Assembly: GCA_015055615.1 (NCBI GenBank)
Contig: SVHT01000001.1
Location: forward strand, 124,001-188,000
Direction: 5' to 3'
Origin: Clostridiales bacterium
Lineage (GTDB): Bacteria > Bacillota > Clostridia > Christensenellales > Borkfalkiaceae
Length of the DNA: 64,000 nt
Shown: piece by piece, positions 40,526 to 64,000 of the stretch
Layout: every line of letters begins with the position of its first letter
How positions within the stretch are numbered: the first letter of the stretch is position 1
Notes under the pieces: model-generated
What the model saw: the letters and a program-made list of their open reading frames with translations, nothing else
Database searches by the model: none
What the model was told of the DNA's origin: nothing
Translations under genes and position numbers: made by a program

Positions 40526-41845
40526 TTGAGCCTAAAAAATGGGCTTTTAATAACAAAGATAATGAAAAAGGTATGTGTTATCGGTGGAGGCGCCGCAGGG
40601 CTTATGGCGGCGTATGCAGCCGCCGAAAAAGGACATTTTGTCACCTTGTTCGAGAAAAATGAAAAACTCGGCAAGAAAATATACATTACAGGGAAGGGGC
40701 GTTGTAACTTTACCAATGATGTTCCCGCGGAAGATTTTTTGCAAAACGTAGTGCGTGGTAAAAAGTTTTTGACGGGAGCTATTTATGCTTTTTCTCCACA
40801 AAAAACGATTAATTTGTTGGAAAACTATGGTTTATCAATCAAAATTGAGCGTGGAAACCGTGCTTTTCCTACGTCCGACCATGCCAGCGACGTTACCAAA
40901 ACCTTAGAAAAAGCTTGTAAATCGGCAGGGGTTTCTATTCATTTAAATGAAAAAGTAGAAAAAATTATCACTTCTATGTCAGACATAATACCCATGTCTG
41001 ACATAGCTGAACATACTACGCCAGACATAGGTATTATGCCACGCGTAGTAAAAGTAAAAACAGAAAAGAACGAATATGACTGCGACGAAGTGATTGTTGC
41101 AACGGGCGGTATCAGTTATCCTTCTACCGGTTCGACGGGGGACGGCTATCTTTTCGCGCAGGAATGCGGTCATACGGTTACAGACCTTAAAACAGGGCTT
41201 TGTGGCTTAAATTTACACGGCTCCGCGCATACTTCCTTGCAAGGCTTAGCGTTAAAAAACGTAACTTTCACAGTTAAAAACGGCAATAAAACGGTGTACG
41301 AAGAATTTGGCGAGATGTTATTTACGCATTTTGGCGTATCTGGTCCAATTATTTTATCTGCATCGTCTATGATCAACCGTTTACCCCTCGAAAAATTGAC
41401 GGCAACGGTGGATTTAAAGCCCGCTTTGGATGAGCAAACGTTGGATAAACGCCTTTTGCGTGATTTTGAAAAGTATAAAAACAAGCAAATTTCCAATGCT
41501 TTCGTCGAATTGTTACCGCAAAAGCTTATTCCCGTAGTATTATCCGTTGCGTCTGTTTCCGCAAACAAAGCAGTCAACGCAATAACGAAAGAGGAGCGCG
41601 CTCGGCTTGTCAAAACTTTGAAGGCTTTCCCCTTAAAACTCCGCAGTTTGCGTGGTTTTGAGGAGGCGATTATCACGTCGGGGGGCGTGGAACTTTCTGA
41701 AATCAACCCCAAAACGATGGAGAGTAAAAGGGTAAAAGGCTTACGTTTTTGCGGCGAAGTTTTGGACGTGGACGCATTTACAGGCGGTTTTAATATGCAG
41801 ATCGCCTTTGCAACCGGCTACGCGGCAGGGAAAAATATTGAATAA
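40526..41845 (+). CDS. HI0933/BaiN-type FAD-dependent oxidoreductase with palindromic insertion
   Basis: About 427-439 residues. FAD-binding GGGAAGLMAAYAAAEKGH opens the protein; GKGRCNFTN, ATGGISYPSTGSTGDGY and the C-terminal TSGGVELSEINPKTMESK with FCGEVLDVDAFTGGFN are hallmarks of the HI0933/BaiN flavoprotein family (poorly characterised reductases). Between EKVEKII and VVKVKTEKN lies an extra stretch of about 20 residues (SMSDIIPMSDIAEHTTPDI) encoded by a palindromic element, in frame. Start: the TTG at 40526 has an AGGGG RBS; the ATG at 40562 lacks an RBS but fits usual family starts. Confidence 0.87.
   Translation: MSLKNGLLITKIMKKVCVIGGGAAGLMAAYAAAEKGHFVTLFEKNEKLGKKIYITGKGRCNFTNDVPAEDFLQNVVRGKKFLTGAIYAFSPQKTINLLENYGLSIKIERGNRAFPTSDHASDVTKTLEKACKSAGVSIHLNEKVEKIITSMSDIIPMSDIAEHTTPDIGIMPRVVKVKTEKNEYDCDEVIVATGGISYPSTGSTGDGYLFAQECGHTVTDLKTGLCGLNLHGSAHTSLQGLALKNVTFTVKNGNKTVYEEFGEMLFTHFGVSGPIILSASSMINRLPLEKLTATVDLKPALDEQTLDKRLLRDFEKYKNKQISNAFVELLPQKLIPVVLSVASVSANKAVNAITKEERARLVKTLKAFPLKLRSLRGFEEAIITSGGVELSEINPKTMESKRVKGLRFCGEVLDVDAFTGGFNMQIAFATGYAAGKNIE
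40974..41050. repeat. Palindromic element inserted in a coding sequence
   Basis: CTATGTCAGACAT and ATGTCTGACATAG form a perfect 13-bp hairpin around a 7-nt loop. A second set of complementary arms (TACTACGC/GCGTAGTA, CATAATACC/GGTATTATG) makes a larger alternative fold. A related palindrome lies at 59957-59989. In-frame insertion of a palindrome recalls the Rickettsia palindromic elements. Confidence 0.7.
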
Positions 41846-41970: not shown

Positions 41971-42984
41971 ATGACGATTATACGTGGCGCCACTACGGTT
42001 GCGCAAGATAACAAAGAGGAAATTTCCTTTGCCGTCAAAGAACTTCTGGATGAGGTTTTTGCATTAAACGACTTACAAAAGGACGAGGTAAAGGGGTTTG
42101 TCTTTTCTTTGACGACGGATATTCATTCTTATCATCCCGCAAAAGCCGCAAGGGAATGCGGATATGATTTTGCGCCGTTGTTCGCGGCGATTGAGCCCGA
42201 AATCAACGGTGGATTAAAGCTGTGTATTCGTTTGATGCTTTTGACGGAGCTTTCCGACGATAGAAAGGCGAAACACGTATACCAAAAGGGGGCGAAAAAT
42301 TTGCGTAAAGATATATCCGAAATCTTAAATATTGCGTTGGACGGCCCTGCCGGCAGCGGTAAGAGTACGGTAGCGAAAATTCTAGCGAAAGATTATAATA
42401 TTTTGTACCTTGATACAGGCGCTATGTACCGTGCTTGCGGCTTAAAGGCGTTGCGTTTGGGTATCGATACGAAGGACTGTGAAAAGGTGACGGAAATGTT
42501 GCCGTTGCTTGACGTTAAGGTGGAATATAAAGACGGTAAACAACATACGATATTGGACGGCGAAGACGTTTCGCTCGCAATTCGTGAAAACGCCGTGTCT
42601 ATGGCGGCATCCAACGTTTCCGCGCACCCTGCCGTGCGCATCAAAATGGTGGAAATGCAACGCGAAATCGCGGGGAATATGTCCTGCGTTTTGGACGGGC
42701 GGGATATCGGCTCAACTGTGTTGCCGAACGCAAAATATAAGTTCTTTATAACAGCAGACAGTAAGGTACGCGCAATGCGCCGATTTAAAGAATTGCAAGC
42801 GCGTGGCGAAACGGTTGATTTCGATAAATTACACGAAGAAATAAAGGCGCGTGACAAGCAGGACAGCGAACGAGAATTTTCGCCCTTAAAATGCGCCGAC
42901 GACGCAGTTGTGGTCGATACGTCGACAATGGATATTGACGAGGTAATTTCGACAATTAAAAAGCATATTCAATCAAAAATCTAA
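41971..42984 (+). CDS. cmk: Chorismate mutase (AroH)-cytidylate kinase fusion
   Basis: 337 residues. Residues 115-337 are cytidylate kinase: P-loop DGPAGSGKSTVAK, YLDTGAMYRA, LDGRDIGSTVLPNA and ARDKQDSEREFSPLK; it phosphorylates CMP/dCMP. Residues 1-112 match monofunctional AroH-type chorismate mutase: IRGATTVAQDNKEEI, VFSLTTDIHSYHPAKAARE and CIRLMLLTE followed by KHVYQKGAKNLR, which correspond to the trimer active-site Arg/Glu and tail. The kinase usually stands alone at about 220 residues. The next genes (plsC, ispH-rpsA) are the usual cmk neighbours. Confidence 0.9.
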   Translation: MTIIRGATTVAQDNKEEISFAVKELLDEVFALNDLQKDEVKGFVFSLTTDIHSYHPAKAARECGYDFAPLFAAIEPEINGGLKLCIRLMLLTELSDDRKAKHVYQKGAKNLRKDISEILNIALDGPAGSGKSTVAKILAKDYNILYLDTGAMYRACGLKALRLGIDTKDCEKVTEMLPLLDVKVEYKDGKQHTILDGEDVSLAIRENAVSMAASNVSAHPAVRIKMVEMQREIAGNMSCVLDGRDIGSTVLPNAKYKFFITADSKVRAMRRFKELQARGETVDFDKLHEEIKARDKQDSEREFSPLKCADDAVVVDTSTMDIDEVISTIKKHIQSKI

Positions 42985-58886: not shown

Positions 58887-58939
58887 ACCTGGCTTACGCA
58901 AACTACCTTTTAACGGAGGAAAAAATGCGTAAGTCAGGT
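58887..58939 (+). promoter_or_regulatory. Hairpin masking the spoIVB start codon
   Basis: ACCTGGCTTACGCA (58887-58900) pairs with TGCGTAAGTCAGGT (58926-58939), 14 bp with one G-U. The RBS ACGGAGG lies in the 25-nt loop, and the second arm starts inside the ATG (58925-58927). The second arm is followed by TATTTTTG, so it could also act as a weak terminator. Confidence 0.55.
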
Positions 58940-59950
58940 ATTTTTGTTATTAGCGCGGCGATGTCGTTGGTGTGTATTTACGGCGGCCACACCGCGAAAG
59001 ATATAATCAGCGTTTCTGCGGCTGAAAAAATTGAAAAAACGGTATACGTCGGAGGTATGTCGGCGGGTTTTACCCTTAAAACAGGCACAGCACAAGTGAT
59101 TGGAACGTGCGAAGTGATTACAGAAAACGGTTTTTGTGCGCCTGCGGCAAGGGCAGGGCTTCGCGCGGGCGACAATATTAAAAAAGTAGGCGGTATAACC
59201 GTTGAAACAGTAACCGAACTCAATGAGGTGATCAATGAAAGCAAGGGAAAATGCTTGGATTTTGAAATTGAAAGAGGCGGGAAAGTTTTTAATATTTCCA
59301 TACAGCCCGTTTTGGATAAAAATACGGCGCGTTATAAAATCGGCGTACTGGTCCGCGATTGCGTTTCGGGAATTGGTACGGTAACGTATATCGAAAAGGA
59401 TAGCGGACGGTTTGGTTCGCTTGGGCATTCGGTTACAGGAGAAAACAACCATGAAATGACCGTTTCCGACGGCTCTGTTTATGAATGCAGTATTGTGGGC
59501 GTAAGCAAGGGAATACGCGGTAAAGCGGGCGAGCTTCGCGGTATGTTTTTGACGGATAAAAGTATCGGAAATGCAGAAAAACTCTGCGATTGCGGTATTT
59601 TCGGTCAAGTAAGCGAAGAGTTTATGATGGACGATTTAATGCGTACGGTTGCAAGCTCTGACGAGGTAAAACCAGGGAGCGCGTGCATTTATTCGACCAT
59701 CAATGGATTAGAACCAAAACGCTATGAAATCGAAATTGTAAAGGTCGATAAACGCAATAAAGAGCATAAAAATTACGTGATAAGAATTGTTGACGACGAG
59801 TTAATTGCTGAAACGGGGGGAATCGTGCAAGGTATGAGCGGTAGCCCAATATTGCAAAACGGTAAGCTTGTTGGAGCGGTAACGCACGTCTTTTTAAACG
59901 ACCCAACGCGAGGCTATGGTATTGATATTGACGTAATGTTGCGAGAATAA
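58925..59950 (+). CDS. spoIVB: SpoIVB serine protease (S55, PDZ)
   Basis: 341 residues: N-terminal signal/anchor, PDZ domain (residues 70-125: PAARAGLRAGDNIKKVGG) and the S55 peptidase domain with a His motif FGSLGHSVTGEN and the nucleophile GMSGSPILQNGKLVGAVTH. It signals from forespore to mother cell in sigma-K activation. spo0A, the common next gene, is not present; a dacF-like gene follows instead. Length is shorter than the Bacillus protein (426). Confidence 0.92.
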   Translation: MRKSGIFVISAAMSLVCIYGGHTAKDIISVSAAEKIEKTVYVGGMSAGFTLKTGTAQVIGTCEVITENGFCAPAARAGLRAGDNIKKVGGITVETVTELNEVINESKGKCLDFEIERGGKVFNISIQPVLDKNTARYKIGVLVRDCVSGIGTVTYIEKDSGRFGSLGHSVTGENNHEMTVSDGSVYECSIVGVSKGIRGKAGELRGMFLTDKSIGNAEKLCDCGIFGQVSEEFMMDDLMRTVASSDEVKPGSACIYSTINGLEPKRYEIEIVKVDKRNKEHKNYVIRIVDDELIAETGGIVQGMSGSPILQNGKLVGAVTHVFLNDPTRGYGIDIDVMLRE

Positions 59951-59956
59951 TGAAAA

Positions 59957-59989
59957 CTATGTTACACATAATAATTATGTCAGGCATAG
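59957..59989. repeat. Second, imperfect copy of the palindromic element
   Basis: Two 16-nt arms, CTATGTTACACATAAT and ATTATGTCAGGCATAG, face each other around one base. Each arm (in the same orientation) matches CTATGTCAGACATAAT of the copy at 40974 in 13 of 16 positions. It lies between spoIVB and dacF. Confidence 0.6.
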
Positions 59990-60013: not shown

Positions 60014-61249
60014 ATGAAGAAAAAGTTAGGTATTGTTGGGTTTGTTAGTACGGCAGTTTCTCTTTGTTGTATATGCGCAGGTAGCGTTTTTCAAAAAACG
60101 GTGAAAGTGGACGCAAAAGAAATGCCTTTCTGCGTGCAGAATTGTGCTGAAACGCAGGAAAATAAAGGGAAAAAGGACCATTTGAACTTGCGCGCAAAAT
60201 CGGCTTACGTCATGGATTTTGGAACGGAAACACCGATATATTCGCAAAATGAAAAGTCACGTTTGCCGATTGCGAGCATGTGTAAAATTATGACGTTATT
60301 GCTCTCGTTTGAGGCGATTGACGAAGGGATTTTGGATATAAACGAAGAGATTGTCGTCAGCGAACGCGCGGCGTCTATGGGCGGTTCGCAGGTTTTTTTA
60401 GAAGCGAACGCAAAATATTCTGTCAATGAACTGATAAAAAGTATCGTAGTTTGTTCCGCAAACGACAGTTGTGTGGCTATGGCAGAACGAATCGCGGGGA
60501 GTGAAGACGTTTTCGTGGAAAGAATGAACGAAAAAGCCAAAGAAATTGGCGCAAACGACACTTTGTTTGCAAATTGTACGGGCTTGCCAAAAGAGCCGCA
60601 ATATTCCTGTGCTAAGGACGTCGCGATTATACTAAAAAACCTTTTAAAACACGAGGATTATTACACGTTTAGTAAGGTTTGGATGGATAATTTTCAACAT
60701 CCGAAGGGGCGACACACAGAGATAACGAACACAAATAAATTGGTGCGTTTTTACGACGGCTGTGACGGTGGAAAGACGGGCTTTACGAACGAGGCGGGCT
60801 TTTGCCTTGCGGCAACCGCAAAACGCGGAGATATGCGCATTATTTCCGTGGTAATTGGCGAAGAAAGCAGTCAAAATCGTTTTGACGACGTTCGCACGAC
60901 TTTTGATTATGCTTTTGCTAATTATGCAGTAACCCCCGTAATCGAACAAGAAAAACCGCTTGAACAAACGGTTATGGTAAGCGGTGGCAAGCAAAAATTT
61001 TTGCGGGTATATCCCAAGGACACTTACTATGCTTTTTCTCGTCGAGGCGAAAAGGGAAATATCACCTTAGAAACCCGTTTGTTTAACGTAAAAGCTCCGA
61101 TAGCGAAAGACCAACAAGTAGGGGAAATGATTGTATATAACAACGGCGTAGAAGCGCAAAAAATCCCTTTGTTTGCGTATGAAAAAGTGGAAAAAGCAAA
61201 CTTCTTCGATTGTATTCAAGACGTTGCAAAAGATTGGAACGCTCGCTAA
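60014..61249 (+). CDS. dacF: D-alanyl-D-alanine carboxypeptidase (DacF-like)
   Basis: 411 residues, S11 family. Signal peptide (residues 1-32), SxxK motif in IASMCKIMTLL, SxN in CSANDSCVAMA, KTG in GGKTGFTNEAG, and a C-terminal beta-rich domain (GNITLETRLF). It trims peptidoglycan peptides; in endospore formers DacF acts in cortex maturation, and the neighbouring spoIVB supports that. A general DacA-type housekeeping role is the alternative. Bacillus dacF is followed by spoIIA genes; here lysA follows. Confidence 0.88.
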   Translation: MKKKLGIVGFVSTAVSLCCICAGSVFQKTVKVDAKEMPFCVQNCAETQENKGKKDHLNLRAKSAYVMDFGTETPIYSQNEKSRLPIASMCKIMTLLLSFEAIDEGILDINEEIVVSERAASMGGSQVFLEANAKYSVNELIKSIVVCSANDSCVAMAERIAGSEDVFVERMNEKAKEIGANDTLFANCTGLPKEPQYSCAKDVAIILKNLLKHEDYYTFSKVWMDNFQHPKGRHTEITNTNKLVRFYDGCDGGKTGFTNEAGFCLAATAKRGDMRIISVVIGEESSQNRFDDVRTTFDYAFANYAVTPVIEQEKPLEQTVMVSGGKQKFLRVYPKDTYYAFSRRGEKGNITLETRLFNVKAPIAKDQQVGEMIVYNNGVEAQKIPLFAYEKVEKANFFDCIQDVAKDWNAR

Positions 61250-63565: not shown

Positions 63566-64000
63566 ATGGAAAAGGAAAAACTGACAATAAATTCGGTCAA
63601 AAATTTCGAAGCGGAAGTAGATTATACGACCGTTCTCGACAATTTTGAAGGACCGCTCGACCTTCTTTTGTATTTGATAAAGCAGGAAGAAATTGAGATT
63701 AAGGATATTTTCGTTTCGCAAGTAACCGAGCAATTCTTAGAGTATATGAAAGGTTTGCCGAGCTTGGATTTAGAAAAGGCGAGCGAATATCTCGATATTG
63801 CGGCTACGATAATCGATATTAAGGCGAGACGATTGGTACCGCCACCCGATTACGAAGAGGACGGCGATTACGATTCGGACGATTTCGGCTATGGCGATTA
63901 CAACCCCGAACGCGAATTGATTCAAGCCCTTGAAGAGTATCAGACGGCAAAAAAACTGAGGGAACGTGAAACGGTCGGTTACATTTTCAAAGCGCCCGAT
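63566..64000 (+). CDS. scpA: Segregation and condensation protein A, 3' truncated by window end
   Basis: The ATG at 63566 has AGGAG upstream; 145 codons are open to the window end (the ORF track omits it). VLDNFEGPLDLLLYLIKQEEIEI is the classical ScpA start (quoted in part: FEGPLDLLLYLIKQ), followed by ITEQ-like VSQVTEQFLEYM and AATIIDIKARRLVPPPD, then an Asp/Tyr-rich acidic loop. ScpA is the kleisin of the SMC-ScpAB condensin. It is 12 bp after the M50 gene, the usual neighbour. Confidence 0.93.
   Translation, partial: MEKEKLTINSVKNFEAEVDYTTVLDNFEGPLDLLLYLIKQEEIEIKDIFVSQVTEQFLEYMKGLPSLDLEKASEYLDIAATIIDIKARRLVPPPDYEEDGDYDSDDFGYGDYNPERELIQALEEYQTAKKLRERETVGYIFKAPD

Follow-up and report, generated by a model that had tools for sequence, protein, structure and literature searches.

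Palindromic boxes clustered around the replication terminus of gut Clostridia as putative binding sites of a terminus-organising system

In a family of gut Clostridia, 13-bp palindromic boxes are clustered within about 50-150 kb of xerS and dif and are kept at orthologous loci, and we consider it probable that they are the protein-binding sites of a system that organises the terminus domain. The clustering and the positional conservation themselves are held with high confidence, and the conserved core is a pair of boxes, TATG-YSWSR-CATA, placed 18 bp apart, rather than a hairpin. The boxes are likely to be bound by a membrane protein with a PadR domain and a coiled coil, as suggested by the boxes in its promoter, the geometry of the operator, the location of its gene and the co-occurrence of the two. 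For the fuller picture, in which this membrane-spanning protein would act on about ten to twenty boxes around dif, tie the terminus to the membrane and form an independent counterpart of MatP/matS in Gram-positive-type bacteria, we would put the chances as even.

The window, that is, the whole stretch of 64,000 nucleotides that was analysed (C5:124001-188000, from a genome of 1.69 Mb that is split into 12 contigs), contains the units and host genes that are listed in Table 1. Unit 1, CTATGTCAGACATAATACCCATGTCTGACATAG, codes for MSDIIPMSDI in baiN; its 13-bp arms are 100% complementary and its host gene matches TIGR00275, which agrees with an earlier note on this DNA that described a perfect 13-bp palindrome in frame in a flavoprotein gene. 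The insert was correctly placed between two conserved strands, where it lies in a loop; the palindrome stood as described, whereas the insert proved to be longer than stated and to include a second, diverged unit 42 bp downstream of unit 1. The related palindrome that had been reported downstream of spoIVB is real as well, though its own fold is weak (z -1.8). The open reading frame that follows baiN (41971-42984 of the window) resembles, by eye, a fusion of an AroH-type chorismate mutase with a CMP kinase. Within the window, 13-mer matches with at most three mismatches were barely above chance (12 vs 7.9 expected). The search of the genome for further copies that the earlier note had proposed was carried out with a covariance model built from the first ten copies (E < 1e-6 for full units), and it found ten full 33-bp units, with a clear gap below them, in seven places, six on C5 and one on C6. 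The copies form, as had been suggested, a repeat family specific to the lineage and occur both between genes and in coding DNA (BaiN, ArgS), with one unit lying in frame in argS.

Table 1. Coordinates of the boxes, units and genes discussed in the text; positions are those of the window unless a contig is named.
Feature	Position	Strand	Details
Two-box unit 1	40974-41006	+	covariance model 52.7 bits, E 2.8e-10
Boxes of unit 1	40975-40987 and 40993-41005		TATGTCAGACATA and CATGTCTGACATA
Two-box unit 2	41016-41048	-	boxes 41017-41029 and 41035-41047; 46 bits, E 1.9e-8
Two-box unit 3	59957-59989	+	between spoIVB and the dacF-like gene; 42 bits, E 2.5e-7
Boxes of unit 3	59958-59970 and 59976-59988		TATGTTACACATA and TATGTCAGGCATA
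BaiN/HI0933-like flavoprotein gene	40562-41845	+	host of units 1 and 2; TIGR00275, E 5.8e-130
spoIVB-like gene	58925-59950	+	unit 3 begins 7 bp past its end
dacF-like D-Ala-D-Ala carboxypeptidase gene	60014-61249	+	downstream of unit 3; named from sequence
XerS-like tyrosine recombinase gene	C5:194069-195160		190 bits, short of the 267 bits of the curated cut-off
Unit places on C5 (kb)	165.0 (doubled), 184.0, 204.4, 267.5, 274.5, 303.5 (doubled)		-30, -11, +10, +73, +80, +109 kb from the terminus
Unit place on C6 (kb)	275.1 (doubled)		contig not joinable to the terminus contig C5
Candidate binder gene	C5:294527-297331		934 residues, about 100 kb from dif
Orthologous unit loci			BaiN, spoIVB-dacF, coaE-glgC, miaA-aminotransferase, sigma factor-pyruvate kinase, CAAX-protease/solute-binding-protein junction, argS (G008, G052)
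Boxes of G151 relative to xerS (kb)	-131, -102, -98, -61, -31, -9, +0.9 (two), +57, +67		

On C5, the GC skew and the gene direction switch at about 190-195 kb (about 193 kb for the skew), at a tyrosine recombinase gene that is most like XerS. The terminus, 7 kb past the right end of the window, is marked by this switch, by the recombinase gene and by a difSL-like sequence, TTTTCCGAAAAGTT, at C5:195208 (195.2 kb). Five genomes of the genus have such a sequence at a distance of about 50 bp from the start of xerS. The difSL site has been described together with XerS from streptococci and lactococci (PMC5357621); here, an uncultured Clostridia genome carries a XerS-like single tyrosine recombinase with an adjacent difSL-like sequence at its terminus. 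The genes scpA and an scpB-like gene, partners of SMC that were named by eye, are found at C5:187566-189075, less than 8 kb from the terminus, with scpA starting at about position 63566 of the window. All of the copies on the main contig, C5, which make up six of the seven places, flank the terminus, and the skew switch likewise falls among the units in genomes G014 and G005. In a genome from another genus, G151 (g9, 55% GC), xerS at 219.2-220.3 kb is exactly on the skew switch, 10 of the 11 exact boxes are between -131 and +67 kb of it, and the next 88 kb leftward contain no boxes. Similar observations were made in three genomes of g7 that had been picked for their few contigs; G115 has six of its 12 boxes no more than 50 kb from xerS (p 2.8e-5), the count being still six at 75 kb, and five of seven are within 75 kb in both G187 and G165 (p 8e-4 and 1.1e-3, respectively, each reckoned for 110 kb), with several boxes of these genomes less than 2 kb away. 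Moreover, G208 (g9) has 9 of 17 boxes within 110 kb of xerS (p 4e-5). A minority of the boxes are farther out, at 120-270 kb from xerS. Origin-proximal sites of the parS or RBM kind were rejected because dnaA is on contigs other than those that bear units, and the boxes were not taken for the dif site itself, since they are multi-copy and a separate difSL-like sequence exists near xerS.

The numbers of boxes in the relatives were obtained by counting exact matches to the consensus TATGYSWSRCATA with the mirror-image pattern as a control, and 181 genomes were included in the wide count; the analysis covered 17 genera. Genomes of the box-bearing genera mostly have 5-24 exact boxes (genus medians 4-16) compared with 0-4 in the mirror controls, while a few among the 181 reach 27-79. 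There were 10-24 exact boxes per genome in g9 (sampled), 19 in g10, 16 in g11 and 5-11 in g7 (mirror control 0-2), and 0-1 in g2, g8, g13 and g16. The unusually box-rich relatives were G082 with 79 exact boxes, G233 with 57, G228 with 42, G234 with 38, G191 with 35 and G249 with 32.

The best candidate for the binder is a protein of 500-950 residues that is predicted to consist of a PadR winged helix, followed by a long coiled coil and, at the C-terminal end, four transmembrane helices. Its N-terminal PadR domain was recognised both in Pfam (E 7.7e-17) and through PadR-s2 proteins in the PDB (E to 1e-25), and the AlphaFold model of residues 1-165 (mean pLDDT 71), in which the winged helix is confident, resembles PadR/LmrR. 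The coiled-coil-like middle stretch has no proline in 554 residues and is followed by four hydrophobic C-terminal helices, and the homologue from G151 shows the same layout in 672 residues. Wherever the candidate gene and xerS share a contig, they are about 40-140 kb apart. A box is found 64-109 bp before the start codon in all 13 of the g7, g9 and g10 genomes that have the upstream region (nine exact, four with one mismatch); where this was inspected, it usually stands immediately before a TTGACA -35 element. The genomes of the window's genus have a pair of boxes that lies ahead of the start codon or overlaps it, and this pair is a weak one in G000, the genome of the window itself (two boxes with two mismatches each). 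The symmetric extended box that was derived from 28 boxes, AGTAYTATG-YSWSR-CATARTACT, shows the TACT(N11-12)AGTA geometry; both halves of TAYT(N11)ARTA are present in 8 of the 28 and at least one half in 25. The binding of TACT(N11-12)AGTA by cdPadR1 in its own promoter was demonstrated experimentally (PMC5050560).

When compared with the G000 protein, the N-terminal parts of the homologues are 65-78% identical in g4, g7, g9 and g10, which are rich in boxes, 49-59% in g6, which has a median of four boxes, and 44-50% in g2, g13 and g16, in which there are typically 0-1 boxes; none of the eight g8 genomes, with 0-1 box each, has the protein. Within g17, a genome with a close homologue has seven boxes and one with a distant homologue has none. 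At the genus level, the number of boxes correlates with the protein (Spearman rho 0.54, p 0.03; 0.77 without g11), a value that is uncorrected for phylogeny and confounded by shared ancestry. There are exceptions: G066 (g11) lacks a long PadR coiled-coil protein in spite of its 16 exact boxes, which may reflect an assembly gap or another binder; G180 has 18 boxes but only a weak protein match, possibly due to gaps in a metagenome assembly; and in G073 (g18) the protein is present while exact boxes are lacking. The diverged PadR coiled-coil proteins of g2, g13 and g16 (L342-L344), which occur without the box, may read a different palindrome.

In the explanation that we propose, the PadR winged-helix protein would bind the boxes and would also control its own gene through the upstream box, both of which are well supported. 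It is plausible that a membrane-sited protein that binds scattered boxes would gather the terminus and tether it to the membrane or the division site, and that the terminus would thereby be held until dif recombination and septation finish; the in-frame copy in BaiN would be one such site, tolerated in a surface loop. Judging from the architecture of the protein and from the MatP, RefZ and RacA analogues, we are evenly divided on whether the candidate acts by compacting the terminus or by anchoring it at the membrane or the site of division. An ordinary PadR regulon, in which the boxes would be operators of a self-regulating transcription factor and the target genes would be near the terminus by chance, is unlikely. 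The family of the candidate, the box directly upstream of its own promoter and the position of some boxes in divergent or upstream regions are what such a regulon would predict; however, it does not fit sites inside coding sequence (BaiN, ArgS), in the narrow gaps of co-directional gene runs and between convergent genes, the flanking genes are without a common function, and the clustering around dif, the coiled coil and the four transmembrane helices would be left unexplained.

The presence of about ten sites per genome on both sides of the terminus is also consistent with sites of replication fork arrest that are similar in function to Tus-Ter or RTP-Ter, a reading that we consider very improbable. 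A polar fork trap was hinted at by the window's genome, where 8 of the 10 units point along replication, and the subset with an ATACC core is biased over all of the genomes (36/51, p 0.005, the copies not being independent), but it was dropped when the orientation over 91 units turned out to be 50 co-oriented vs 41 anti-oriented (p 0.4). In contrast to the Tus and RTP systems, no polarity across the replichores was seen; moreover, the boxes are symmetric palindromes, whereas the known fork traps are polar.

Across 96 units, the skeleton TATG-N5-CATA-N5-TATG-N5-CATA is invariant, and the N5 inside each box is approximately YSWSR. The boxes of the window's genus are usually doubled at the 18-bp spacing and sometimes quadrupled, while the other genera of the family have single boxes. 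In the same 96 units, the matches at most of the stem pairs are as frequent as independent columns would give, the exceptions being positions 1/33 and 9/25. The pairing was weakly covariant, and the wide search was therefore made with a model of the sequence only; since some pairs covary beyond shuffles (66 vs 42 cells, relatedness uncontrolled), the paired arrangement may nevertheless have a role. Hairpins that act at the RNA level, in stability or processing, and that have built up near the terminus would agree with this excess covariation and with the strong fold of the BaiN mRNA (z-score -6.7 for 40960-41060, with none of 200 shuffles folding equally well), but we hold them to be scarcely credible because 22-45% of the copies have mismatches at the five central pairs, which covary little, single boxes in other genera have no long hairpin and Rfam returned no match above the gathering score, the best being a plant microRNA at E 0.14, that is, chance.

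Of the 57 genomes of the genus, 49 have units, among them each of the 12 that are near-complete, and the numbers are always small (about ten per near-complete genome), and eleven further genomes of the genus have them at orthologous loci (Table 1). The BaiN units were found in all ten relatives within the genus whose locus was examined, and for miaA and BaiN the positions are orthologous even across genera. The BaiN homologues from other genera are without the full insert; several have a single 13-bp box at identical codons (L208, L212 and L214; in L208, ACT ATG TCA GAC ATA ACT) and the rest have nothing. The single box at identical codons in other genera indicates that the site predates the genus and grew by the addition of boxes. 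Coding copies are in the single open phase in 20 of 21 cases. This common frame (MSDIIPMSDI) is stop-free in 95-99% of units vs 1-43% for the other frames and, being the only one that is regularly without stops, needs no special cause.

The earlier note had read the palindromes as a small mobile repeat family, and a mobile palindromic element or MITE that is mobilised in trans and inserts into genes would be suggested by the repeated palindromes, the two-unit copies and the in-frame copies in BaiN and ArgS; the lineage-specific family was retained, but mobility was rejected as extremely improbable on the orthology of the loci throughout the genus and the single boxes in the BaiN outgroups, together with about ten copies per near-complete genome, their clustering on both sides of the terminus, the lack of target duplications at the units and the lack of a clean empty site among the BaiN homologues examined, which have units, one box or nothing. 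The comparison with BaiN homologues free of the insert, which the same note had suggested, showed that all homologues within the genus carry the segment, an outcome that it had itself named as counting against its reading. Its analogy to the Rickettsia palindromic elements did not survive the low copy number and the genus-wide orthology: both are palindromic and in frame in unrelated genes, but the Rickettsia elements are about 150 bp long, numerous and mobile (PMC10969869), whereas the units are of 13 or 33 bp, few and positionally conserved.

The reading of the boxes as binding sites of a terminus-organising system invites comparison with known systems. MatP/matS is found in Enterobacteria and Vibrio, and the sequence of matS is GTGACRNYGTCAC. 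The boxes are similar in being 13-bp palindromic sites with about 10-25 copies in the terminus region, although a minority of them are outside it, but they differ in sequence (TATGYSWSRCATA) and are often paired in one genus; additionally, the candidate matches PadR and not MatP in Pfam and is predicted to have a coiled coil and its own transmembrane helices. There are 23 matS sites in 800 kb, and MatP connects the terminus with the division machinery (PMC3330122). The RBMs of Bacillus are a few near-palindromic sites that are bound by RefZ and whose positions are conserved over a genus (PMC6657595). The small number of near-palindromic sites, their genus-wide conserved positions and the repurposed transcription-factor family have parallels in the box system; however, the RBMs are around oriC and RefZ is of the TetR type and soluble, whereas the boxes are around xerS and the terminus and the candidate is of the PadR type and predicted to span the membrane. 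The box system would thus resemble MatP/matS and RefZ/RBM in its way of working, but with a site of another sequence and a protein of another family it is a member of neither. In RacA/ram and RocS, a single protein that anchors the chromosome has a DNA-binding domain and a coiled coil and associates with the membrane, as is predicted for the candidate, but RacA is of the MerR type and acts at the origin, in contrast to a PadR-type integral membrane protein at the terminus. With cdPadR1 of Clostridioides difficile and the PadR-s2 proteins, the candidate shares a homologous winged helix (PDB 5dym, E 1.2e-17), the TACT(N11)AGTA geometry and a site in its own promoter; those proteins, however, are soluble regulators of about 110 residues, whereas the candidate has an additional 300-600 residues of coiled coil, four predicted transmembrane helices and terminus-clustered sites.

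Beyond the MatP group, no organiser of the terminus domain is known to us; in the papers searched, none was found for the Firmicutes, nor was anything relevant found on fork traps in clostridia or on PadR coiled-coil membrane proteins, or any description of such a protein or site. The boxes and their candidate binder are possibly a separately evolved terminus-anchoring system, and this reading leads to clear predictions for one named gene and one defined site of 13 bp. A word of caution follows as well: palindromes that are in frame need not be mobile and may be conserved sites of protein binding for which a gene has made room. If true, it would represent an independent solution to the organisation of the terminus, in which the tether is contained in one protein that combines a DNA reader, a long arm and a membrane anchor.
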